Of a DNA stretch of 64,000 nt, positions 4,194-31,096 are shown piece after piece (the first letter of the stretch is position 1; every line of letters starts with the position of its first letter). The DNA comes from Candidatus Fimousia stercorigallinarum (GTDB lineage Bacteria; Bacillota; Clostridia; Lachnospirales; Lachnospiraceae): the NCBI GenBank assembly GCA_018715775.1, contig DVKZ01000092.1, positions 1 through 64,000 on the forward strand. The letters run 5' to 3'. Both the position numbers and the translations under genes were made by a program. Below the pieces are notes generated by a model. The model made no database searches, was not told where the DNA came from, and worked only from the letters and a program-made list of their open reading frames with translations.

Positions 4194-5585
<1,392 letters not shown>

Positions 5586-5896
5586 TTAATGTCTCGTACA
5601 TCTTTGTCCTGTTGACTATTATATATAAAAACTGTCAATTTTACAAGTTTGAGTTTTAAAAATTGTAAAAAAAATTTGAAATTACTTAAAAAAATTAATT
5701 TTAAGCCAAAAAACAGAGAAAAAAATTAATTCATGAAGGATTGGATGTGGAAAAAATTCATTTTATAGAAAAAAATTCAGGCTTTGACCGGCAAAAAGAG
5801 ATGGATTTTGTGAATTCAATGTGAATTCAAATACAAAAGATTGTATAAATTTCCGAGCTCTTTTATAATAAGGGGGACTGGAAAGGGGAATTTTTT

Positions 5897-6727
5897 ATGA
5901 AAAAAGAAATAAAATTAATTGGACTTGATCTGGATGGGACAACGTTTACAAGTGATAAACGCATTACAGATCACACAAAATCGGTGATAGAAAAAGCCAT
6001 TGAACAGGGCGTGACAGTCTTGCCATGTACCGGACGTCAGTTATCGGGACTGCAGGAAGAATTCTTATCAATGAAAGGAGTCCGATATGCGGTCACATCA
6101 AATGGGGCGTCGGTTATCGATCTAAAGGAAAAGAAAAAGCTGTTTACCGATTATATTCCTTATGAAATTGCCGCGGATACGATGGAGAGGTTATTAAAGG
6201 AAGAGATTTTAACGGATATTTATATTGATGGCCTTTGTTATATCGAAGAAGAATTGATGGTGCTGTTTACATCTTTTCTTCCGAATCAGGAATCGGTAAC
6301 ATACTTTAAAAAGACAAGAACGCCGGTTAAAAATCTGCCGGAATTTATTCGGAAGAATCGGTTGGATGCAGAAAAGATCCACCTTCTGTTCCGTGACATG
6401 GAATTAAAAGCAGCACTGAAAAAAGAATTTGATGCGAATCCGCATTTTCTAACAACTTCTGCGGTGTCCTTTAATTTAGAATTGAACAATAGGACAGCTG
6501 ATAAAGGAACGGCCTTGCTTGTGCTTGCTGATCTTCTGGGAATTCCTCATGATCAAACAATGGCATGCGGGGATAGTTTTAATGATGAAGCGATGCTTCG
6601 AAAAGCAGGATTTTCTGTAGCAATGGGAAATGCAGATCCGGAAATTAAAAAAATCTGTGATTTTGTCACAAAGACAAATGATGAAGACGGCGTTGCCTAT
6701 GCGATAGAAACTTTTGTTTTATCTTAA
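5897..6727 (+). CDS. Cof-type HAD-IIB family hydrolase
   Basis: LIGLDLDGTTFTSDKRI and ACGDSFNDEAMLRKAGFSVAMGNA motifs. Confidence 0.92.
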   Translation: MKKEIKLIGLDLDGTTFTSDKRITDHTKSVIEKAIEQGVTVLPCTGRQLSGLQEEFLSMKGVRYAVTSNGASVIDLKEKKKLFTDYIPYEIAADTMERLLKEEILTDIYIDGLCYIEEELMVLFTSFLPNQESVTYFKKTRTPVKNLPEFIRKNRLDAEKIHLLFRDMELKAALKKEFDANPHFLTTSAVSFNLELNNRTADKGTALLVLADLLGIPHDQTMACGDSFNDEAMLRKAGFSVAMGNADPEIKKICDFVTKTNDEDGVAYAIETFVLS

Positions 6728-6747
6728 AAAAAGGAATGAAGTTGTAG

Positions 6748-9309
6748 ATGAATATGATAAAAAAATACAAATACGCATTTGCGGCATTTGCAGTACCGTT
6801 TTTATTTCTCACGGGGACTATGGTGGCATTGGAATGCGCACCGTTTGGAAGCCAGAGTTTTATGATCGTTGACGCTTTGCACCAGTATCTGCCCTTTTTC
6901 TCGGATTATCAGGAAAAATTAAAAAATGCAGATTCTTTGTTTTATTCATGGAATGGAGGACTTGGGTATAATTTTTATTCTTTGTGGGCCTATTATTTGA
7001 GCAGCCCTTTTAATTTGATCATAAAATTTGTGCCGAAAATGACGATCATATCGGTATTAAACTGGATGGTCGTGCTGAAGTTTTCTTTATGTTCACTGAC
7101 CGGATTTTTTTATTTTTCTTATCGGCAGAGAAAACAGAGTTTTCGCAATGTAGCCTTTGGGCTTTGTTATGCATTTAGTACATATATGACCGGATATTAC
7201 TGGAATATCATGTGGCTGGAAGTAATGATCCTGCTGCCGGTTGTTCTGATCGGCATGGACCGCATGATGAAAGAAGGGAAATCAAGGATGTACTGCCTTG
7301 CGCTGTTTGCATCGCTGTTCTGTAATTATTATATATCTTTTATGGTATGTGTTTTCCTTGCTTTATGGTATTTTACCTATTCCTTTGAGGGAGTCAAAGA
7401 TTTTTTCAAGAAAGGTATCCGGTTTGCCTGGAATTCCGTACTGGCAGCTGCAATGGCTGCGGTTGTTCTGCTCCCGGCATATCTCGGGCTCATGGATACA
7501 TCATCGGCAACGCTTGATTTTCCGGAATGGCAGCTATATGGAAAAACGGCAGAACTTTTTGCAACCCATATGGCAGCTGTCGCGCCTTATAATATGTCAA
7601 CAGACGACGGACTCGGCAACCTGTATTGCGGGATTCTTCCGGTTCTTGTATTCGTATTGCTGATCATTGATAAAAAAATGCCGCGGAAGGAAAAAATCAG
7701 GAAAATCGTGATCCTTGCCTTTATGGCGATCAGTTTTCAGGTAGAGATACTGAATTATGTATGGCATGGTTTTCATAATCAATACGGGATCCCGAACCGA
7801 TTTGCATTTTTATATCTGTTTTTAATGCTTATTATGGCATATGAGCAATTGCAGTATATGAACTATCTTGAGACAAAGCGGTGGAAGATTGTATTGGCAG
7901 CAGCAGTGCTCATAGCGGGAATCGTATATTGTTATGAAAATTCCGTTCTCGATCAGGAAGAGGCATACTGGATCTCCGGCGGACTGGTCATTATATATGC
8001 ACTTTTGTTATGCATTAGAAAGAAATGGACAGCAGGTGTGATTTCAGCGATCATGGTCATAGAGGTTATGGCAAATACCGCATATGGATTTTATCAAAGC
8101 GGACAGACAGATTCGGAGTATTTCTTTGGAGATACGGGTGCAATTGCTGAAATTATTGAAAAAGAAGAACCGACGATCGAGCAGAGGATGGAATTGATCA
8201 ACAGCAAGATGTTGGATGAAAGCATCTGGTATACAATGCCTAATGTAACAATGTTCGGCTCGACTGCGCTTGGAAACACTGTAGACGCTATGGATCAGCT
8301 TGGATTTTATACAGGTGTCAACGAGTATTTATATGAAGGAGCAACACCGGTGACGGATATGCTGCTCGGGGTAAAATCCGTCTTACTGCGGGAAGATGAT
8401 GTGAATCGCCGGTCCGATTATGAATATTATTATAAGAGAAAAAATGTCCGGCTGTATAAGAATAAGCTTTATCCGTCAATCGGATACTGGATGGGGGAAA
8501 ATGCACGAAACTGGAATGAGCAATCGTTGAATCCATTTTATGTACAAAATGACCTTGTGGAGAGCGCCTACGGCATTGAGGATCTTTATAAAGAAGTTCT
8601 GGTGGATACGCCGATCTCCGGAGGCTGTACGATTGAAGGACAGGGAAATAATAGTTATTATATTGAAAATGATTCGAAAGAGGATAATTTTATTACGTTT
8701 ATATTTCATGTGGAAGAAGATATGGATCTGTATCTGCACTTTGACTATGGCGGAGCAGAAAATGCGGAGCTTTTTGTAAACGGAATGAACATAAAAAGTG
8801 GACGCCTGAATTCTCAGATTTTATCTGCCGGAAAAGTATCGCAGGGTGATGAGGTAATGTTGCGGATTCAGATGGAATCCGGGGAAGAAGGAAATGGAAC
8901 AATTACTGTACGGGCTGCATCTTTGGATCAGAAAAAATATAAGGAACTGATCTCGACGATGGAAGGAAACCGTTTTCGTATGGAATCCTATACGAGTACA
9001 AGTATAAAAGGAAAGCTGGATGCAGAAGAAGATGGAGTAATTTTCTTTTCTATCCCGTATGATCAGGGATGGAGTGTCAGCATTGATGGAATAGAAACAG
9101 AACCAGAACCAATGGAAGAGGGATTTCTATCTGTTGCTGTGGAAAAAGGAAGTCATGATATTACATTAGCATATCGCTCTCCGGGCTTTTCGGAAGGATG
9201 GAAGCTATCTGCAGCTGGATGGTTGATATTTATTGTTTCTCAGATCATACATGAATGTAAGAAAAGCTTTAGAAATAATTCAGACTTAAAGAAAAAGGGT
9301 ATGTTATAA
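6748..9309 (+). CDS. YfhO family membrane protein
   Basis: 853 aa multi-TM; C-terminal IPYDQGWSVSIDG...F.SVAVEKGSHDITLAYRSPGF typical of YfhO. Confidence 0.88.
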   Translation: MNMIKKYKYAFAAFAVPFLFLTGTMVALECAPFGSQSFMIVDALHQYLPFFSDYQEKLKNADSLFYSWNGGLGYNFYSLWAYYLSSPFNLIIKFVPKMTIISVLNWMVVLKFSLCSLTGFFYFSYRQRKQSFRNVAFGLCYAFSTYMTGYYWNIMWLEVMILLPVVLIGMDRMMKEGKSRMYCLALFASLFCNYYISFMVCVFLALWYFTYSFEGVKDFFKKGIRFAWNSVLAAAMAAVVLLPAYLGLMDTSSATLDFPEWQLYGKTAELFATHMAAVAPYNMSTDDGLGNLYCGILPVLVFVLLIIDKKMPRKEKIRKIVILAFMAISFQVEILNYVWHGFHNQYGIPNRFAFLYLFLMLIMAYEQLQYMNYLETKRWKIVLAAAVLIAGIVYCYENSVLDQEEAYWISGGLVIIYALLLCIRKKWTAGVISAIMVIEVMANTAYGFYQSGQTDSEYFFGDTGAIAEIIEKEEPTIEQRMELINSKMLDESIWYTMPNVTMFGSTALGNTVDAMDQLGFYTGVNEYLYEGATPVTDMLLGVKSVLLREDDVNRRSDYEYYYKRKNVRLYKNKLYPSIGYWMGENARNWNEQSLNPFYVQNDLVESAYGIEDLYKEVLVDTPISGGCTIEGQGNNSYYIENDSKEDNFITFIFHVEEDMDLYLHFDYGGAENAELFVNGMNIKSGRLNSQILSAGKVSQGDEVMLRIQMESGEEGNGTITVRAASLDQKKYKELISTMEGNRFRMESYTSTSIKGKLDAEEDGVIFFSIPYDQGWSVSIDGIETEPEPMEEGFLSVAVEKGSHDITLAYRSPGFSEGWKLSAAGWLIFIVSQIIHECKKSFRNNSDLKKKGML

Positions 9310-13932: not shown

Positions 13933-15261
13933 TTGAACAGATGGAAGAAGAGGATATGGAAGTGTCTGCCGTCACGATGGGTGTTATACCGAAAGCGAAG
14001 AATGCAGCATTATATGGCGGTATCTGATGAGGAATTGCGGCAGCATCTGAAGCGGCAGATACAACAGGAAATAAAGATTGGCTGTGTAATCTTGATGTTA
14101 TTGTTTTTGTGTATTGTTGGTGCGTGCATATCCGGCCGCACAGGGGAACAGACGACAGAGATTACGAGAAATCCGGCAGGTGGAGGGGAAGCAGAGGAAA
14201 ATGTCACCATCGATATCGAAGGAGAGCAGTTTGAATATAGCCTTACGGTTGAAGAAGAGTATTTGACAAAAGCGGAGCGGGAGTCATTATTTCAAGAAAG
14301 TTTTCAATATTTAGAGAAAGAGATGCTGTGTAAAAATCCGGGGCTTAATGAGGTAAGGAGTCACCTGAGATTTTTATGGGAAATACCGGACAAGCCGGTG
14401 GAAATCCGATGGGAGACAGAAGATGATACGTTGATCGACACGGAAGGCAATGTCTATAATCAAAGCATGAAAAGTGGCTCTAAGGTAGTTCATATAAAAT
14501 TGATGCTGTCATATCAGAATGATGAAGAAGAAAAAGTATATAAAATTACCATCTTTCCGAGACAAATATCAGGGAATCAGAAAGTGGCGGAAAACGTTTT
14601 GGCTAAGATCCGGGAACTGGAAAAAGAGAATCGGACAAGCAGCATCCTTAAAATCCCTTCGATGATTGAAGGTGCACAGATTAAGATCGGAGATACCGAA
14701 AACCCATGGGTTTTTCTGGCCGGGATGATTGCTGTATTTGGTGCATTACTCATTGCGAGACAGTGGGAGTATGAAAATCGACGGAAAAAAGAAGTCAGAA
14801 GAGCTTCGGAGATGGAATATTCCAACATTTTATGGCAGTTTGTATTATTTTTGGAAGCCGGATTTACGATTCCGATGGCATGGCTGAAGATCGTGTCGGA
14901 TTATGAAAAGAACAAAAAAGAAATGCCGGAAGAGAAACGATATGTATATGAACAGATGAGTTATGCGTGGAGACAGATGGAACTTGGATATTCTATGGAA
15001 GAAGTGTTTTTGTTCTTCAGTCGGAAGATGGGACTTCGGTCTTATGCAAAGCTGATGACATTATTTTTACAAAATATTACAAAGGGATCGAAGCATATGC
15101 TGGATATTTTAAAAACAGAAGAACATCAGGCATTTGTGGATCGTTGTGAACAGGCAAAGCGAATGGGAGAAGAGGCGGATACAAAATTGCTTCTTCCGAT
15201 GGGCATGATGCTTTTGAATATACTGCTGCTGTTAATGGTTCCTGCATATCTGCAGTTTTAG
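13933..15261 (+). CDS. TadC-like type II secretion F protein with a large N-terminal extracytoplasmic insert
   Basis: TM at about residues 50-70, hydrophilic/Ig-like insert, then T2SSF-like ILWQFVLFLEAGFTIPMAWLK...LFLQNITKGSKHMLDIL. Confidence 0.75.
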   Translation: MNRWKKRIWKCLPSRWVLYRKRRMQHYMAVSDEELRQHLKRQIQQEIKIGCVILMLLFLCIVGACISGRTGEQTTEITRNPAGGGEAEENVTIDIEGEQFEYSLTVEEEYLTKAERESLFQESFQYLEKEMLCKNPGLNEVRSHLRFLWEIPDKPVEIRWETEDDTLIDTEGNVYNQSMKSGSKVVHIKLMLSYQNDEEEKVYKITIFPRQISGNQKVAENVLAKIRELEKENRTSSILKIPSMIEGAQIKIGDTENPWVFLAGMIAVFGALLIARQWEYENRRKKEVRRASEMEYSNILWQFVLFLEAGFTIPMAWLKIVSDYEKNKKEMPEEKRYVYEQMSYAWRQMELGYSMEEVFLFFSRKMGLRSYAKLMTLFLQNITKGSKHMLDILKTEEHQAFVDRCEQAKRMGEEADTKLLLPMGMMLLNILLLLMVPAYLQF

Positions 15262-15300
15262 ACAGCAGGCGATCAGGAGATTACGAGGAGGTGAAAAAGT

Positions 15301-15462
15301 ATGAAACGTTTTATGGAGGATGAAACCGGTATGGGTGTCGTAGAAGTTATTTTGATTATTGTGGTTTTGATCGGGCTGGTCATTATTTTCCAAACACAGA
15401 TAGAAAAAATCGTAAACAATATTTTCAAAACGATTACTTCAAAAACAGGAAAAGTGAAATGA
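15301..15462 (+). CDS. Flp1-family type IVb pilin, 53 aa
   Basis: MKRFMEDETGMGVVEVILIIVVLIGLVIIFQTQIEKIVNNIFKTITSKTGKVK; G(X)nE prepilin motif; not in supplied ORF track. Confidence 0.85.
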   Translation: MKRFMEDETGMGVVEVILIIVVLIGLVIIFQTQIEKIVNNIFKTITSKTGKVK

Positions 15463-16859
15463 GAAAGGAAGAATGTGGACAAGTCACGATTTTTCTCAGT
15501 CTGTTGTTGATTAGTTTTTTTCTGATCTTGAGTGTCTGTATAGAAGGAATTTATGGACAGATGCAAAGAGCTGATTTTATGGAACAACAGCTTTTGATCG
15601 GGGAATATGCGCAGGCCAATTATCATAAAGAACTGGTGGAACAATTTCATCTGTTTGCCATTGACGGGCGTTATGCAGCGAAGATGGAAAAAGAGTTGAA
15701 AAGAAAACTGGAACAGAACGGTTGCAGCGTTACGAAATTTCTGATTACGGACCCAGTGAGTATCACGGCCATGGATGGGGAAATTTTGAAACATCAGATT
15801 CGGGAGTATATGAAATATAAAGAAATTTCTGATTTGTTTCAAATGCTGAAAAAGTCTTTAAGCGGCGTACAGGATGATGAAGATGTCAAACGAATGGAAG
15901 AGAGTATTCAACATGTTGAAGTCAAATCGATGGAGGAAAACTATGAGAATGAAAAAGATGTGGATATCAAAAAGGAGGATCCGAGAAAAGCGCTTTTGAA
16001 ATTGCTGAAATCGGACATTCTGGATTTAGTGATGCCGAAAGGAAGTTCAATATCAGAACGCAAAATTGCAATTGTCTATGGAGCAGAAGATACGAAAAAA
16101 GAGTCGAAAATTGATTTTTTCAGTAAAGAGTCGGTTTTGGATCTGATACCGGATTCGAAAAAGGAGAGTGCGTTCAATCAGATCAGCACGGAAGGACTGA
16201 GCGTGTTATATGCGGACTTGTGTTTTCGAAATGCACTGGATAAGAATGCCGGCGGCGGAGTGCAATATGAGATGGAATATTTGATTTCCGGGAAATCGAT
16301 GGATAGGGAGAATTTAAAATCCGTCGTATACCGACTGTCAGCGATCCGATTTGTCTCTAATTACGGATATTTGCTTTCCAACAGCAAATGTCAGGCGGAG
16401 GCTTATGCACTTGCAGCGGCAATCGCGAATGTAGGATCGGCGGTTCCGGGACTTGTTGAAGGGATCAAACTGCTCATTTTAGCGGCGTGGGCCTTTGGAG
16501 AAGCAATCGTTGATGTACGGACCTTGTTAAATGGAGGCTGTATTCCGTTTGTGAAAACAGAGACGACATGGCAGCTTCAGCTATCGAATCTCGCGACATT
16601 GACAGCGCAGGAAAAGACGGGACAAAAAGGAAATTCGTATGAAGATTATTTAAAAATTCTCTTGCTGCTTCAGTTGGATCCGGAAGAAAAATACGGAAGA
16701 ATGCTGGATATGATTGAACAGCGGATTCGGGAAAGCCAAAAGGGATTTCAGTTATCAGAATGTTTATTTTCTTATAAAATGACGGTGTCAAAAGAACAGG
16801 AATTTTTGTTTTATCGTATGAGCAGGCAATTAGAAAACAGCCGGATCTATACGTATTAA
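15459..16859 (+). CDS. DUF5702 domain-containing Tad-locus protein
   Basis: GQVTIFLSLLLISFFLILSVCIEGIYGQMQRADFMEQQLLIGEYAQANYHKELVEQFHLFAIDGRY; ATGA overlap with flp1. Confidence 0.75.
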   Translation: MRKEECGQVTIFLSLLLISFFLILSVCIEGIYGQMQRADFMEQQLLIGEYAQANYHKELVEQFHLFAIDGRYAAKMEKELKRKLEQNGCSVTKFLITDPVSITAMDGEILKHQIREYMKYKEISDLFQMLKKSLSGVQDDEDVKRMEESIQHVEVKSMEENYENEKDVDIKKEDPRKALLKLLKSDILDLVMPKGSSISERKIAIVYGAEDTKKESKIDFFSKESVLDLIPDSKKESAFNQISTEGLSVLYADLCFRNALDKNAGGGVQYEMEYLISGKSMDRENLKSVVYRLSAIRFVSNYGYLLSNSKCQAEAYALAAAIANVGSAVPGLVEGIKLLILAAWAFGEAIVDVRTLLNGGCIPFVKTETTWQLQLSNLATLTAQEKTGQKGNSYEDYLKILLLLQLDPEEKYGRMLDMIEQRIRESQKGFQLSECLFSYKMTVSKEQEFLFYRMSRQLENSRIYTY

Positions 16860-16903
16860 ATGCAGAGATTCTTTTAGATAAAAGCGAAGGGAGGGAAAAC
16901 AGC

Positions 16904-17782
16904 ATGCTCACATACCGAATATATCAAATAAAAAATAAAACTTCTCTCCAAGGCAAAAACATCTGCAATGGTTTCATTTATAATGATCACATGTTTGACA
17001 GAAAAGGAAATGATCAAAATGTGAATGGGGCATGCTGTTTTACCTCCCTTCGGGGAAGCATGACGATTGAAAGCAGTTTTGTGGTTCCGTTATTCTTAAT
17101 CGCAATGGTCATCAGCATGTTGTTTGGTGAGGTGATCGTAATAAAAAGCCAGATGCATCATGGACTTCTTGAAGCAGCTAAGATTGCTGCCGAAGAGCAG
17201 TATTATGCGGAAAAGAGAGGAAGAAGCCAGAGTCTTGCAAAAGTAAAACTCATGCAGAAAAAGTACTCAAACAAAGACAATTATCCGAAACTGATACAAA
17301 TTAGGCACTTGTCTTTTGCAGGAAGCAAGCTGTTAAATGATCAGGATGAGGTAGAACTCCATATGAAATATGATCTTTTGATCGAATATCCTTTTTTACC
17401 AGGTAAACAGGTAACTGTGACGGAGAGCGTATATCAAAAGGCATTTACCGGCTATAAGCCGACAGCATTTGAATCGGGGGAGGGATATGCCTATGTGACG
17501 AAGTACGGCAATGTATATCATCAATCCATACAATGCAGCCATATTATGTTGCGCATATCCGGAAGTAAAGAGGTGGATGCTTATCTTCAAGGAAAAACTT
17601 CTTATCAGCCGTGTTCCAAATGTGCAAAGAATTGTTCCGGAGAAGAAGAACAGCTGTATATACCAAAAGAAGGGGATTGTTATCATACATCCTTATCATG
17701 CAGCGGCTTAATAAGATTAGTCAGAAAAGTTACAATTTGGGAGATTGAGGGGATGAAACCGTGTTCAAGGTGCGGAAATTAG
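16904..17782 (+). CDS. TadE-like pseudopilin with two C-terminal Cys-rich modules
   Basis: RGSMTIESSFVVPLFLIAMVISMLF; C-terminal YHQSIQCSHI...PCSKC and YHTSLSCSGL...PCSRC. Confidence 0.75.
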   Translation: MLTYRIYQIKNKTSLQGKNICNGFIYNDHMFDRKGNDQNVNGACCFTSLRGSMTIESSFVVPLFLIAMVISMLFGEVIVIKSQMHHGLLEAAKIAAEEQYYAEKRGRSQSLAKVKLMQKKYSNKDNYPKLIQIRHLSFAGSKLLNDQDEVELHMKYDLLIEYPFLPGKQVTVTESVYQKAFTGYKPTAFESGEGYAYVTKYGNVYHQSIQCSHIMLRISGSKEVDAYLQGKTSYQPCSKCAKNCSGEEEQLYIPKEGDCYHTSLSCSGLIRLVRKVTIWEIEGMKPCSRCGN

Positions 17783-18276
17783 AAAAAGGAATGATGACAG
17801 TAGAAGCCTCATTTCTTTTGCCGTTGATTTTTTTTATCCTGGTGCTGATTTTGTATTTTTTTATTTTTTGTTATGAGAATGGACTCGCAGCCGGGATTTT
17901 GTTGGAAGAAATAGGAAAGGCCGGTAATGTTGTAAAGACGGAAGGAAATATCGATACAGGAGAATATCAGATTGATAGCTTGAATCAAAGAAATCTGACA
18001 GAGCTATTTCAACACGACAGTGAGAAAATCGTAAAACAATGCTGTTCTAATATCCGGGAGAAACTTTCCAGACGAAGTCTTTTCGGGACCAATAAAGAGG
18101 TTCGCGTGGAAATCAAACGAGAAGAAATTTCCGGAACGATTCGGGCGGATATTAAGATTCCGATTATTGGTGCCGTTGAAACCGGAGGTTTTTCTTTATT
18201 TCGTGTAGAACAGAAAGTGACAAAGACGATAAGGATACCGGCAGAACAGATACGGAGGTGGCAGCAAATTGAATAA
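17761..18276 (+). CDS. TadE-like pseudopilin
   Basis: KGMMTVEASFLLPLIFFILVLILYFFIFCYENG. Confidence 0.7.
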   Translation: MFKVRKLEKGMMTVEASFLLPLIFFILVLILYFFIFCYENGLAAGILLEEIGKAGNVVKTEGNIDTGEYQIDSLNQRNLTELFQHDSEKIVKQCCSNIREKLSRRSLFGTNKEVRVEIKREEISGTIRADIKIPIIGAVETGGFSLFRVEQKVTKTIRIPAEQIRRWQQIE

Positions 18277-20308: not shown

Positions 20309-20974
20309 TTACAAAGGAAAGAGTAATGTAATGGTCGTGCCTCTTCCGGGTGAAGAAGAAATATGAAATTCTCCATGGATTGATTCCATGATTTCCAGAA
20401 CGAGCGGAAGACCGATGCCGTGTCCGTTCTTCTTATAAGTAACACCGGGATTTAATACCTTTGATAATTGTGGTTGAGTCATGCCGCATCCGGTGTCCTG
20501 CACTTTAATTTGAAGACTTTTGGGATGAAGCTCTGTCTGAATAGATATCGTATTTTTCGAATAACCAGATTCTGTTTTTTTGCAGATTGCGTCGTAGCTG
20601 TTAGTTAATATATTATGAAAAATGTGCTCTAATTGTTGTGTACTGACCGGAAGTTCCACGTGTTCGACTTCGGTTGGGATTGACAGCTGGATTCCCTGTT
20701 CTGAAAGCCGCGGGCTCCATGACTGATATAAATGCTTCAAAAATGAAGAAACCAAAGTTGGTTCTGTTGCTGCACATGTCAGATTTTCTTCTTCCATAAG
20801 TTCCTGAAGGAGACGAAATGCAGAGGAAAAATCCTCTTTCATGCGGATCCAATGTTCATCTTTTGATAAATATTTGTATAAATGTTCAATGTGCTGCAGC
20901 TGACTGTAAATGATCGTTAAGTAATTATTTATCTCGTGTGAAAGGGTAGGTGTTGTATGTAACATGTTTTCCAT
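20309..20974 (-). CDS. Soluble sensor histidine kinase-like protein (orphan)
   Basis: LSHEINNYLTIIYSQLQ H-box; ILTNSYDAI, DTGCGMT, GHGIGLPLVLEI, GRGTTITLLFP HATPase boxes. Confidence 0.85.
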   Translation of the reverse strand: MENMLHTTPTLSHEINNYLTIIYSQLQHIEHLYKYLSKDEHWIRMKEDFSSAFRLLQELMEEENLTCAATEPTLVSSFLKHLYQSWSPRLSEQGIQLSIPTEVEHVELPVSTQQLEHIFHNILTNSYDAICKKTESGYSKNTISIQTELHPKSLQIKVQDTGCGMTQPQLSKVLNPGVTYKKNGHGIGLPLVLEIMESIHGEFHISSSPGRGTTITLLFPL

Positions 20975-22768: not shown

Positions 22769-23116
22769 ATGGCAAAAAGAGGTGGTTTCCCAGGCGGAAT
22801 GGGAATGGGAAATATGAATCAGTTAATGAAACAGGCACAGAGAATGCAAAAACAGATGGAAAAAACACAAAAAGAGTTAGAGGAATCGGTATATGAAGCA
22901 ACAGCCGGCGGTGGAGTCGTAAAAGTTCAGGTATCAGGCAAACAAGAAATCCTGTCCCTTTCTCTTGCAGAAGAGGTCGTTGATCCGGATGATATTGAAA
23001 TGTTAGAAGACCTGATCATTGTCGCTGTCAATGATGCATTGCAGCAAATGGCAGATGACAAAGAAGAAAAACTCGGCAAATTTACAGGTGGAATGGGCGG
23101 AGGACTGCCGTTCTAA
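22769..23116 (+). CDS. YbaB/EbfC family nucleoid-associated protein
   Basis: [25 protein letters not shown], between dnaX and recR. Confidence 0.95.
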
Positions 23117-23712
23117 TGAATTACTATAGTGATGCGATCACGGATTTAATCGATGAATTCAGCCATTTGCCTGGAATCGGAGCAAAATCCGCACAGAAAT
23201 TAGCATTTCACGTCATTAATATGCCGGAAGATCAGGTAAAAAAATTGGCGGATACGATTCTCTCTGCAAAGAAGAACATTCATTATTGCAAAGAGTGCTG
23301 CACGTTGACTGATCAGGAAATCTGTCCGATCTGCGCCAGTTCCAAACGCGATCACAGCACGATTATGGTCGTTGAAAATACGAGAGATCTGGCTGCCTAT
23401 GAAAAAACGGGAAAATACAACGGCGTTTATCATGTTCTGCATGGGGCAATTTCTCCTATGCTCGGAATCGGACCAAACGATATCCGGTTAAAAGAATTGA
23501 TGGAGAGATTGCAAAAAGATGTGAAAGAGTTGATTCTGGCAACGAATTCGAATTTGGAAGGCGAGACAACAGCGATGTATATCAGCAAGCTTGTAAAACC
23601 CACAGGAATCAAAGTCAGCAAGATCGCAAGCGGCGTTCCGGTCGGCGGAGATTTGGAATATATCGATGAAGTTACGCTTCTCCGGGCTTTGGAGGGGCGG
23701 ACGGAAATCTGA
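23116..23712 (+). CDS. recR: Recombination protein RecR
   Basis: [16 protein letters not shown], zinc finger C..C..C..C, Toprim domain. Confidence 0.97.
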
Positions 23713-23918
23713 TCTTTTATCAGATATATTTTATTTTAGATACTGATCATATGAGGGTGTCGTTAAATCATCAAATTAGGTGACGGAGCGATACCCTCGT
23801 TCCATCTAGAAGAAAATCCACCCGGTTTTGTGGACTATTTTGCAACAGTGCCTTTTGTATTTGATAAATTGCATAGAGAGATAATCGGTGGTAAAATAAC
23901 AATAAGGTGGTGATTTTT

Positions 23919-26051
23919 ATGAGACCGGAAGTGGGAAACGTACTAACACAAGATCAGGTAAATTATGTTCGTTATGGAGACAGTGATAATCCACAGAAAA
24001 TTTTGGGCCGTCATTTTGTAAATGGCGGACAAGTGATCAGTTTTTATCAGCCATATGCAAAATATGCGGAACTTTTTTTTGATGATGAATCCTATGTGAT
24101 GGAAAATATTGAACAGACTGATATTTTTTCCGTCTATGTTCCTCATCATAAAGAACTGCCTTATACGATCCGGCTGACGTTTGAGGATGGCTCTGTTCGT
24201 GAAACCAAAGATCCCTATTCTTTTAGTGTCGTGCTGACGAGAAAACAGCTGGAGCTTTGGAAAAAGGGTGAATGGACGGATGTATATCGTTATCTTGGTG
24301 CACATCCGATGACGTTAAATGGTGTAAAAGGCGTATTTTTTGCCGTGTGGGCGCCAAATGCAAAAAGAGTCAGTGTCGTAGGCGATTTTAACCGGTGGGA
24401 TGGAAGAGTAAATCCGATGATCCGCAGAAGTACGGGCGGTATTTTTGAACTGTTTTTACCGGATGCCAGAGAAGGCATGATCTATAAATATGAGATCAAG
24501 ACAAAATTAGGCGAAGTATTTTTAAAAGTCGATCCATTTGCAAATGAATTTGAAGTTACGCCGAAAAATGCATCGGTGATCGCTGATATGAGCGGATATG
24601 AATGGAACGATAAAAAATGGATGGTGGAAAGACATGATACCGATATTTATCGAAGTCCTGTTTTCATTTATGAAGTACACCTTGGTTCTTGGAAAAGAGC
24701 CGGAAATTACGGAGAATATTATTTATCTTACGAAGAACTGGCTCATCAGCTTGCAAAATATATGTCAGATATGGGATTTACCCACATTGAATTAATGGGA
24801 ATTCCCGAGCATTTGCGTGATGAATCGATCGGACATGAGATTCATGGCTATTATGCGCCGACTTCAAGATTTGGAAGCGTAAAAGACTTTAAGTTTTTTG
24901 TGGATTATATGCATCAGCATGAAATAGGCGTGATCTTAGACTGGTCGCCGGCGGGAATTACGAATGATCCGGTCGGAATATCCAGATTTGACGGCACTGC
25001 TCTGTTTGAATCCCTTGATGAAAATAAAAAGAGCATTATGCGTTGGAATACAGTTCCATTTGACTATTCTAAAAAAGAGGTTACGAACTATTTGTTGTCG
25101 AATGCGAGATTTTGGGCGGAAGAATTCCATATCGACGGGTTCCGCATTGCTTCACAGGACAGCGTGATCTATGAACGATATTATAAAGAAAATCGAGAAG
25201 GAAGAGAGTTTCTGAAAAAATTCGTTGATATGGCGAATGAAGAGATGCAGGGATGCGTTGTGATCACGGAAGAGATGCCGGATGACCTGCGAAATGAGAT
25301 GGGCAATTCTTTCCAGTGGGCAGGCAATCATATTTATTCGCTCATCCAGCATTTGCGAAAAGATGAATATTTTGAACGTCAGATTGAAAATGAAGAGATC
25401 AACCGGTTTAAGAAAATGAATAATACGGAAAAAGAGATCATTCGGTTATCCCAGAGATTTGGGGATACTGCAGGTTCCGTGATATCCAAAATGCCGGGCG
25501 ATTACTTTGGAAAATTTGCTTATCTGCGTACCATATGTGCATTTATTGTCGGTCTGCGAGGTAAGAAATATCTGTTTATGGGACAGGAGATCGGACAATG
25601 GAATGACTGGGATGTGAATAAGAGCATCGACTGGCATATTTTGCGCGAATCTCTGAATTTAAAATTCCAGAAATTTGTAAAAGATCTGCTTCATTTTTAT
25701 AAAAAACATAAAGTACTTTATGAAGCAGATAATAAAGAATCACCGTTAACATGGCTGACAAAAGTCGGAGTGAACGAAATTGTTTCATTCACGAGAAAAA
25801 GCCTGAAAACCGGAGAAAAATTAGTATTTATTTGTAATTTTACACCGGTTGATTATGGGGCATTTCAAATCGGTCTGGCGGAAGCCGGACGGTTCACCGA
25901 AGTATTTTCTACGGACAGACAGGAATACGGAGGCATCGGAAATTTAAAAAATGAAAATATAGAAACGCAAACGGAAGAATATGAGGGATTTCCATATTCA
26001 TTGACATTAAAAGTACCAAAACAATCTGTAATCATATTAGAAAAAAAATAA
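23919..26051 (+). CDS. GlgB-like (GH13_9) protein, predicted catalytically defective
   Basis: Overall GlgB architecture (YLGAHPM, FAVWAPNAKRVSVVGDFN, YEVHLGSWKR, GYYAPTSRFG, LFMGQEIGQW) but catalytic motifs substituted; start revised to ATG behind AAGGTGGTG. Confidence 0.85.
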   Translation: MRPEVGNVLTQDQVNYVRYGDSDNPQKILGRHFVNGGQVISFYQPYAKYAELFFDDESYVMENIEQTDIFSVYVPHHKELPYTIRLTFEDGSVRETKDPYSFSVVLTRKQLELWKKGEWTDVYRYLGAHPMTLNGVKGVFFAVWAPNAKRVSVVGDFNRWDGRVNPMIRRSTGGIFELFLPDAREGMIYKYEIKTKLGEVFLKVDPFANEFEVTPKNASVIADMSGYEWNDKKWMVERHDTDIYRSPVFIYEVHLGSWKRAGNYGEYYLSYEELAHQLAKYMSDMGFTHIELMGIPEHLRDESIGHEIHGYYAPTSRFGSVKDFKFFVDYMHQHEIGVILDWSPAGITNDPVGISRFDGTALFESLDENKKSIMRWNTVPFDYSKKEVTNYLLSNARFWAEEFHIDGFRIASQDSVIYERYYKENREGREFLKKFVDMANEEMQGCVVITEEMPDDLRNEMGNSFQWAGNHIYSLIQHLRKDEYFERQIENEEINRFKKMNNTEKEIIRLSQRFGDTAGSVISKMPGDYFGKFAYLRTICAFIVGLRGKKYLFMGQEIGQWNDWDVNKSIDWHILRESLNLKFQKFVKDLLHFYKKHKVLYEADNKESPLTWLTKVGVNEIVSFTRKSLKTGEKLVFICNFTPVDYGAFQIGLAEAGRFTEVFSTDRQEYGGIGNLKNENIETQTEEYEGFPYSLTLKVPKQSVIILEKK

Positions 26052-29720: not shown

Positions 29721-29872
29721 TTTCTTATTTAGAACGACGGAGGTTTAAGGGCCTGTGAAGTCGTGGCAACCCCTATATGGAAGGTGCCGGCCGGAGCCGT
29801 TTGATAAAACGGAGCAATAAGATAACTTGTAATAGCAAGTCACAGATCCGGTCAGTTCGACCGGATTTTTTT
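29721..29872 (+). promoter_or_regulatory. SAM-I clan (S-box) riboswitch with terminator, upstream of metK
   Basis: CTTATT...GGAGG...TGTGAAGTCGTGGCAACC...AAGGTGCC...GCAATAAGAT; terminator GATCCGGTCAGTTCGACCGGATTTTTTT. Confidence 0.85.
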
Positions 29873-29908: not shown

Positions 29909-31096
29909 GTGGAGAGATTATTATTTACTTCAGAATCTGTTACAGAAGGACATCCGGATAAGATGTGCGATCAGATTTCAGACGCGATTTTAGATGCATT
30001 ATTAGAAAAAGATCCGATGAGCCGTGTGGCATGTGAAACATGTACGACAACTGGTCTCGTTTTAGTTATGGGAGAGATCACAACAAATGCTTATGTAGAT
30101 ATTCAGAAAATTGTCCGTGATACAGTTAAGGAAATCGGATATACAAGAGGAAAGTTTGGATTTGATGCGGAAACATGCGGTGTCATCGTTGCGATTGATG
30201 AACAGTCCAGCGATATTGCCATGGGCGTCGATAAAGCGCTGGAAGCAAAAGAAAACAAGATGTCTGATGAAGAAATTGAAGCAATCGGTGCAGGTGACCA
30301 GGGTATGATGTTTGGTTATGCGTCCAATGAAACCGAAGAATATATGCCATATCCGATCTCACTTGCGCATAAGCTGGCAAGAAAATTAACAGAAGTTCGT
30401 AAAACAGGTGTTTTACCATATCTGCGTCCGGATGGAAAAACACAGGTGACGGTAGAATACGACGAAGAAGGAAAACCGGCAAGATTAGATGCGATTGTAT
30501 TATCGACACAGCATGATCCGGATGTGACACAGGCACAGATTCATGAAGATATTAAAAAATATGTGTTTGATGCGGTTATTCCGGCAGACATGGTAGATGA
30601 AAATACAAAGATGTTCATCAATCCGACCGGCCGTTTTGTAATCGGCGGACCACATGGGGATTCCGGTCTTACGGGCCGAAAGATCATCGTTGATACATAT
30701 GGCGGATATGCGCGTCATGGCGGCGGTGCGTTTTCCGGTAAAGACTGTACGAAGGTTGATCGTTCCGCAGCGTATGCGGCACGTTATGTTGCAAAAAATA
30801 TCGTAGCAGCGGGATTAGCGGATAAATGTGAGATTCAGCTTTCTTATGCGATCGGTGTTGCACAGCCGACTTCGATCATGATCGATACATTTGGTACCGG
30901 TAAGATCTCAGAGCATAAGCTGGTTGAAATCGTAAGAGAAAACTTTGATCTGCGTCCGGCAGGAATTATCAAGATGTTAGATCTGAGAAGACCGATCTAC
31001 AAGCAGACTGCTGCATACGGACATTTTGGAAGAAATGACCTTGATCTCCCATGGGAAAAATTAGATAAAGTAGATATTTTAAAGAGCTATTTATAA
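29909..31096 (+). CDS. metK: Methionine adenosyltransferase
   Basis: [46 protein letters not shown]. Confidence 0.98.

Follow-up and report, generated by a model that had tools for sequence, protein, structure and literature searches.

A GlgB-family pseudoenzyme between recR and a HIT-domain gene in a Lachnospiraceae genus: an inactivated, retained descendant of a branching enzyme with a probable non-catalytic role

The window analysed here is a stretch of 64,000 nucleotides of Candidatus Fimousia stercorigallinarum (Lachnospiraceae; contig DVKZ01000092.1, positions 1 to 64,000). It carries, downstream of recR, a gene of the glycogen branching enzyme family that we call pseudo-glgB. An earlier note on this DNA had described its product as a GlgB-family pseudoenzyme that keeps the overall architecture in an intact frame of about 710 codons. 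Both statements hold: the frame is open throughout behind a good ribosome-binding site, and the protein is a full-length GlgB homologue with all four domains, from which catalytic residues are gone. The features of the locus are as follows.

23116..23712, + strand: recR, upstream border of the slot, a neighbour in five genomes of the genus and in three genomes of another genus
23904..23912, + strand: ribosome-binding site with the sequence AAGGTGGTG, 6 nt upstream of the ATG, from direct reading of the sequence
23919..26051, + strand: pseudo-glgB, 710 codons and a stop, with orthologues in four other genomes
23949..24218, + strand: GlgB_N domain (PF22019), amino acids 11–100, 80.2 bits (cut-off 27)
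24294..24542, + strand: CBM48 (PF02922), amino acids 126–208, 101.3 bits, the best-conserved domain among the five orthologues
24594..25733, + strand: degenerate GH13 barrel, about amino acids 226–605, matched by PF00128 at just 42.5 bits
25773..26045, + strand: alpha-amylase C-terminal beta domain (PF02806), amino acids 619–709, 66.4 bits
26066..26482, + strand: HIT-domain protein (PF01230), downstream border of the slot, supported by synteny

The domain order is thus GlgB_N, CBM48, barrel and C-terminal domain, with four Pfam families above cut-off, the barrel match being absent from one orthologue (L038). The N-terminus MRPEVG that follows the ribosome-binding site is the same in all five proteins. 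The best relatives of solved structure are bacterial GlgBs (5gqw, E 2.9e-132, over a nearly full-length alignment); AlphaFold2 models built from few sequences were of low confidence (mean pLDDT 45.5 and 54.7). Among the NCBIfam models, TIGR01515 gives 532.6 for a cut-off of 463.95, while two stricter GlgB models, PRK12313 (543.5 vs 577) and PRK05402 (558.3 vs 741), remain under theirs. Because the TIGR01515 cut-off is passed, pseudo-GlgB would probably be listed among the branching enzymes by automatic pipelines, and a dead GlgB labelled in this way is a warning for annotation.

Gene order around pseudo-glgB is shared within the genus and reads dnaX-ybaB-recR-[pseudo-glgB]-HIT-flavin reductase-aroK-murA. 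Opposite dnaX, on the minus strand, positions 20309-20974 encode a short histidine-kinase-like ATPase (PF02518) that has no obvious sensor domain and is also conserved in two other genomes of the genus. Elsewhere in the window an ordinary SAM riboswitch (RF00162, 64.5 bits, 29722-29823, + strand) lies directly upstream of metK (29909-31096), and the region from about 13933 to 18276 contains genes which, by reading only, resemble a Tad or type IV pilus-type assembly and pseudopilin cluster, with short proteins that show MTVEASFLLP or MTIESSFVVP stretches near their N-terminus.

The state of the active site was read from an alignment that joins pseudo-GlgB and its four orthologues to 35 canonical GlgBs and the E. 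coli K-12 enzyme, whose numbering is used. The stretches that differ are listed below.

24831..24860, + strand: GHEIHGYYAP where the canonical sequence is GYQVTGYYAP
24939..24959, + strand: motif I, DWSPAGI (D335 kept, H340 replaced by Gly)
25140..25166, + strand: motif II, FRIASQDSV (R403 kept, D405 replaced by Ala, new invariant Asp at residue 414)
25185..25190, + strand: site of a 13-amino-acid loop deletion after residue 423 (region of E. coli GEWIPNEFGGRENLEA)
25260..25274, + strand: motif III, VITEE (first Glu, E458, kept in 5/5, the second not)
25290..25295, + strand: site of a 7-amino-acid loop deletion after residue 458, after motif III
25446..25478, + strand: motif IV, LSQ-RFGDTAGS (D526 deleted, H525 replaced by Gln, E527 replaced by an invariant Arg, Arg513)

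At the three catalytic positions D405, E458 and D526, an acidic residue is missing from two in all five orthologues: the nucleophile is Ala, or Ser in L038, and the column of the transition-state Asp is deleted in every one of them, while the general acid/base Glu persists (Glu451 in pseudo-GlgB). Other canonical positions have changed as well. H340 is Gly here and Gly or Ala among the orthologues, H525 is Gln here and Gln or His among them, W298 is Ile here and Ile, Leu or Met among them, and the changes of Y300 to His (His306) and of Q301 to Glu (Glu307) are invariant in the five proteins. The two loops, which are present in active GlgBs and missing from all five pseudoenzymes, had escaped the earlier note, whose codon positions were otherwise correct (Gly at residue 346, 24954-24956; Ala at residue 411, 25149-25151; motif IV from residue 510, 25446). 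Its description of motif IV stands for the loss of His and Asp and fails in treating the motif as letter changes only, since one residue is deleted, and its view of the motif III Glu as the only survivor has to be abandoned: the motif I Asp (D335, Asp341 here) and the motif II Arg (R403, Arg409 here) are also kept in 5/5. Chance or assembly error as the source of the losses is ruled out by their identity in the five genomes. The alignment that the earlier note had named as a possible refutation leaves its reading standing: pseudo-GlgB is very probably a catalytically dead GlgB descendant and not a functional GH13_9 enzyme.

Where this protein comes from is indicated by a second genus of the family, in which a catalytically complete GlgB lies between recR and the HIT gene in the three genomes that represent it. 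In the tree the five pseudoenzymes form one clade (support 100/100), carried by a long stem branch of about 1.15 changes per site, and stand beside the three slot-active GlgBs (support 81/74). This support is moderate taken alone, but the tree and the gene order agree, and we conclude that an active GlgB of the recR slot became the pseudoenzyme. When the pseudoenzymes were forced to group with the short GlgBs of the genus, the tree was rejected (p-AU 0.00045), and with it an origin by duplication of that gene. The remark in the earlier note that the locus is not a glycogen operon is correct, and the position of pseudo-glgB is the one inherited from an active glgB of the same slot. A genus whose RecR is close (87% identity) has no glgB between recR and the HIT gene. 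About 4 kb of other genes stand in this place (L113, G248, 4995-9131); by reading, they suggest the breakdown of a sugar or of inositol, with a dehydrogenase, an isomerase and a transporter beside an AraC-like regulator, and some of the frames are apparently broken. Outside the genus, no pseudo-GlgB was found among the best 30 loci of a search of 200 genomes of the family or among the best 30 loci of a profile search of 392 genomes of the order: the proteins from other genera in both sets are catalytically complete, as are all other full-length GlgBs that were compared. Judged from these two sets of best 30 matches, the catalytic loss appears confined to one genus. A scan of a general contig collection returned only two distant Chryseobacterium GlgBs, and viral contigs three GlgB relatives.

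Within the genus, one of anaerobic bacteria of the gut type, pseudo-GlgB has an orthologue in 5/5 genomes, with intact frames and the same catalytic losses, the four other proteins being 80, 64, 62 and 50% identical to that of the window. Across the five, dN/dS (omega, codon model) is 0.041, close to the values of the genus's active short GlgB (0.034), of its GH13_8 branching enzyme (0.032) and of the slot-active GlgBs from the second genus (0.035). Synonymous sites are near saturation, which makes the values rough, and the pseudoenzyme is represented by five orthologues only, but all values lie a long way from neutrality and indicate purifying selection. Neither mark of a pseudogene, a broken frame or a dN/dS near 1, is seen. 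On these sequence grounds we regard pseudo-GlgB as an inactivated and retained descendant of a true GlgB.

The distribution of conserved residues shows on which part of the protein selection acts. Residues invariant in canonical long GlgBs are kept by the pseudoenzymes at 7/8 positions in the N-domain, 26/34 in CBM48, 57/147 in the barrel and 8/14 in the C-terminal domain. Within the genus, invariant columns of pseudo-GlgB are denser in the CBM48 region (residues 111–225, 66/115) than in the barrel (128/376, P = 1e-5), whereas the pattern is the opposite in the active short GlgBs of these genomes (55/115 vs 263/377, P = 3e-5). Constraint has shifted away from the barrel and onto CBM48, in keeping with a non-catalytic partner that binds glucan or has a regulatory task, and this inversion is the best evidence presented here for a function that would use the glucan-binding module rather than the active site. 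New invariant residues are also found in the old pocket region (His306, Glu307, Asp414 and Arg513), with no significant clustering of newly fixed residues at the old active site (7/50 vs 8/119 conserved barrel columns, P = 0.14). For changed residues, too, no significant concentration at that site was seen (P = 0.12 and 0.14), the whole barrel having drifted. The main surface glucan sites of E. coli GlgB (I, II and VII) are reported to be conserved only in Enterobacteria (PMC10254366), and for this reason the residues of these sites were not transferred to pseudo-GlgB.

The genome of the window carries further glycogen genes. Its short GlgB (G000:C36) is catalytically complete and is the second canonical glgB that the earlier note had proposed to look for; a GH13_8 branching enzyme (G000:C127), adjacent glgC and glgD, and two glgA are present as well. 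With all these present, glycogen is probably made without any activity of pseudo-GlgB. A catalytically complete short GlgB and a GH13_8 enzyme are found in each of the five genomes of the genus. Two genomes of the genus, L043 (G154:C8) and L044 (G201:C13), carry an extra short GlgB paralogue in which the catalytic Asp, Glu and Asp are present and motif IV reads SHDNFGH where the canonical sequence is SHDEVVH.

We consider it rather likely that pseudo-GlgB has a non-catalytic, glucan-binding or regulatory role in glycogen metabolism. The proposal of the earlier note that a pseudoenzyme is under selection for a non-catalytic role gains support from the catalytic losses in 5/5 genomes together with the omega of 0.041; its more specific suggestion of glucan binding or GlgB regulation is favoured by the shift of constraint to CBM48, while the specific role itself is still an inference. 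In the model that we propose, the recR-HIT slot passed on a GH13_9 branching enzyme that lost catalysis in the ancestor of the genus and was then kept. Descent, loss of the nucleophile and of the transition-state Asp, loop shortening, purifying selection and the stronger constraint on CBM48 than on the barrel can be read from the sequences; the further step is that pseudo-GlgB would act as a non-catalytic partner, with CBM48 and other surfaces holding alpha-glucan (glycogen). Its partner might be the active GlgB, a synthase or another glycogen enzyme, which it would dock on, position or regulate, or it might occupy chain ends, or shield and organize chains, and in this way set branch length or granule structure, as an ISA2-like protein.

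What counts against a non-catalytic role is that the general acid Glu, the motif I Asp and the motif II Arg are kept in 5/5, a retention that pure loss of function would not require. These same residues (Glu451, Asp341 and Arg409), together with the new His306, Glu307, Asp414 and Arg513, could form a neofunctionalized pocket for another sugar or a sugar phosphate, and the GHE stretch, Asp414 and Arg513 are indeed new and invariant among orthologues down to 50% identity. We nevertheless hold such a pocket to be unlikely, as residues of this newly fixed type show no significant concentration around the old active site, the active-site loops are deleted, and a barrel less conserved than CBM48 would be unusual for a new active site. 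Likewise unlikely is a rebuilt pocket that serves as a sensor or as a new enzyme and links a small sugar ligand to the binding of glycogen by CBM48, and a rebuilt active site is a minority reading because the new residues are not significantly concentrated there. Residual branching or glucan hydrolase activity, in which a residue such as Asp414 or Glu307 would stand in for the lost nucleophile, could be envisaged from the conserved general acid and the acidic residues newly fixed nearby, but the nucleophile, the transition-state Asp, the motif I His, the subsite Tyr and Trp and the loops are all lost, and Asp414 lies three residues beyond the nucleophile position, within the motif's own alignment; this makes such activity very improbable.

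The neighbourhood of recR, dnaX and murA, conserved in five genomes, could point to a role outside glycogen metabolism, for instance one linked to recombination or to the cell wall. In the second genus, however, an active GlgB occupies this slot, so that the position of pseudo-glgB is inherited and uninformative on function, and we judge a role of this kind improbable. Finally, the long stem branch and the faster change (mean identity 61%, against 75% for the active short GlgB of the genus) would fit a decaying relic, a third branching enzyme that is no longer needed and drifts towards loss, but a frame open in 5/5 genomes at 50-80% identity, a dN/dS of about 0.04, uniform catalytic losses and a tightly conserved CBM48 make decay the least probable of these explanations. 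A non-catalytic role in glycogen metabolism thus remains the reading that we prefer.

Pseudoenzymes of the GH13 family are already known as a kind. A catalytically dead bacterial branching enzyme was not found in a full-text literature search of open-access papers, and the non-catalytic job that pseudo-GlgB probably performs in glycogen storage is seemingly undescribed. The active and the dead relative, which occupy the same chromosomal slot in two genera, form a natural before-and-after pair with which roles of branching enzymes apart from catalysis, such as organizing glycogen or recruiting enzymes, can be probed.

Compared with known systems, pseudo-GlgB shares the domain order GlgB_N-CBM48-barrel-C of the bacterial GH13_9 branching enzymes (E. 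coli, Cyanothece BE1, M. tuberculosis), in agreement with descent from a syntenic active GlgB, and differs from them by the absence of the nucleophile, the transition-state Asp, the motif I His and the subsite Tyr, Gln and Trp, and by two shortened loops. GH57 'like' proteins, reported to have incomplete catalytic machinery (PMC6037648), show that amylase-type proteins without catalytic residues occur, but they belong to a different glycoside hydrolase family. GlgD, the regulatory subunit of GlgC, the bacterial ADP-glucose pyrophosphorylase (PMC10395257), is with ISA2 a precedent for a non-catalytic subunit in the pathway, and is comparable as a paralogue that regulates one of the pathway's catalytic enzymes, a place that pseudo-GlgB would also hold; its fold and step are unrelated, and GlgD adjoins GlgC whereas pseudo-GlgB is not beside glgB. 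The plant protein ISA2 (GH13_11), the non-catalytic partner of ISA1 (PMC12510319), differs by subfamily and kingdom and by an extra N-terminal domain of its own, and its physical partnership is demonstrated whereas for pseudo-GlgB we only infer a partner. Like ISA2, pseudo-GlgB is a CBM48-bearing GH13 paralogue from which most catalytic residues, the nucleophile among them, are gone; it is maintained by selection, changes faster than its active relative and occurs alongside it (PMC12510319). The loss of most catalytic residues is fixed in 5/5 genomes, and each of the five carries the short GlgB as an active paralogue.
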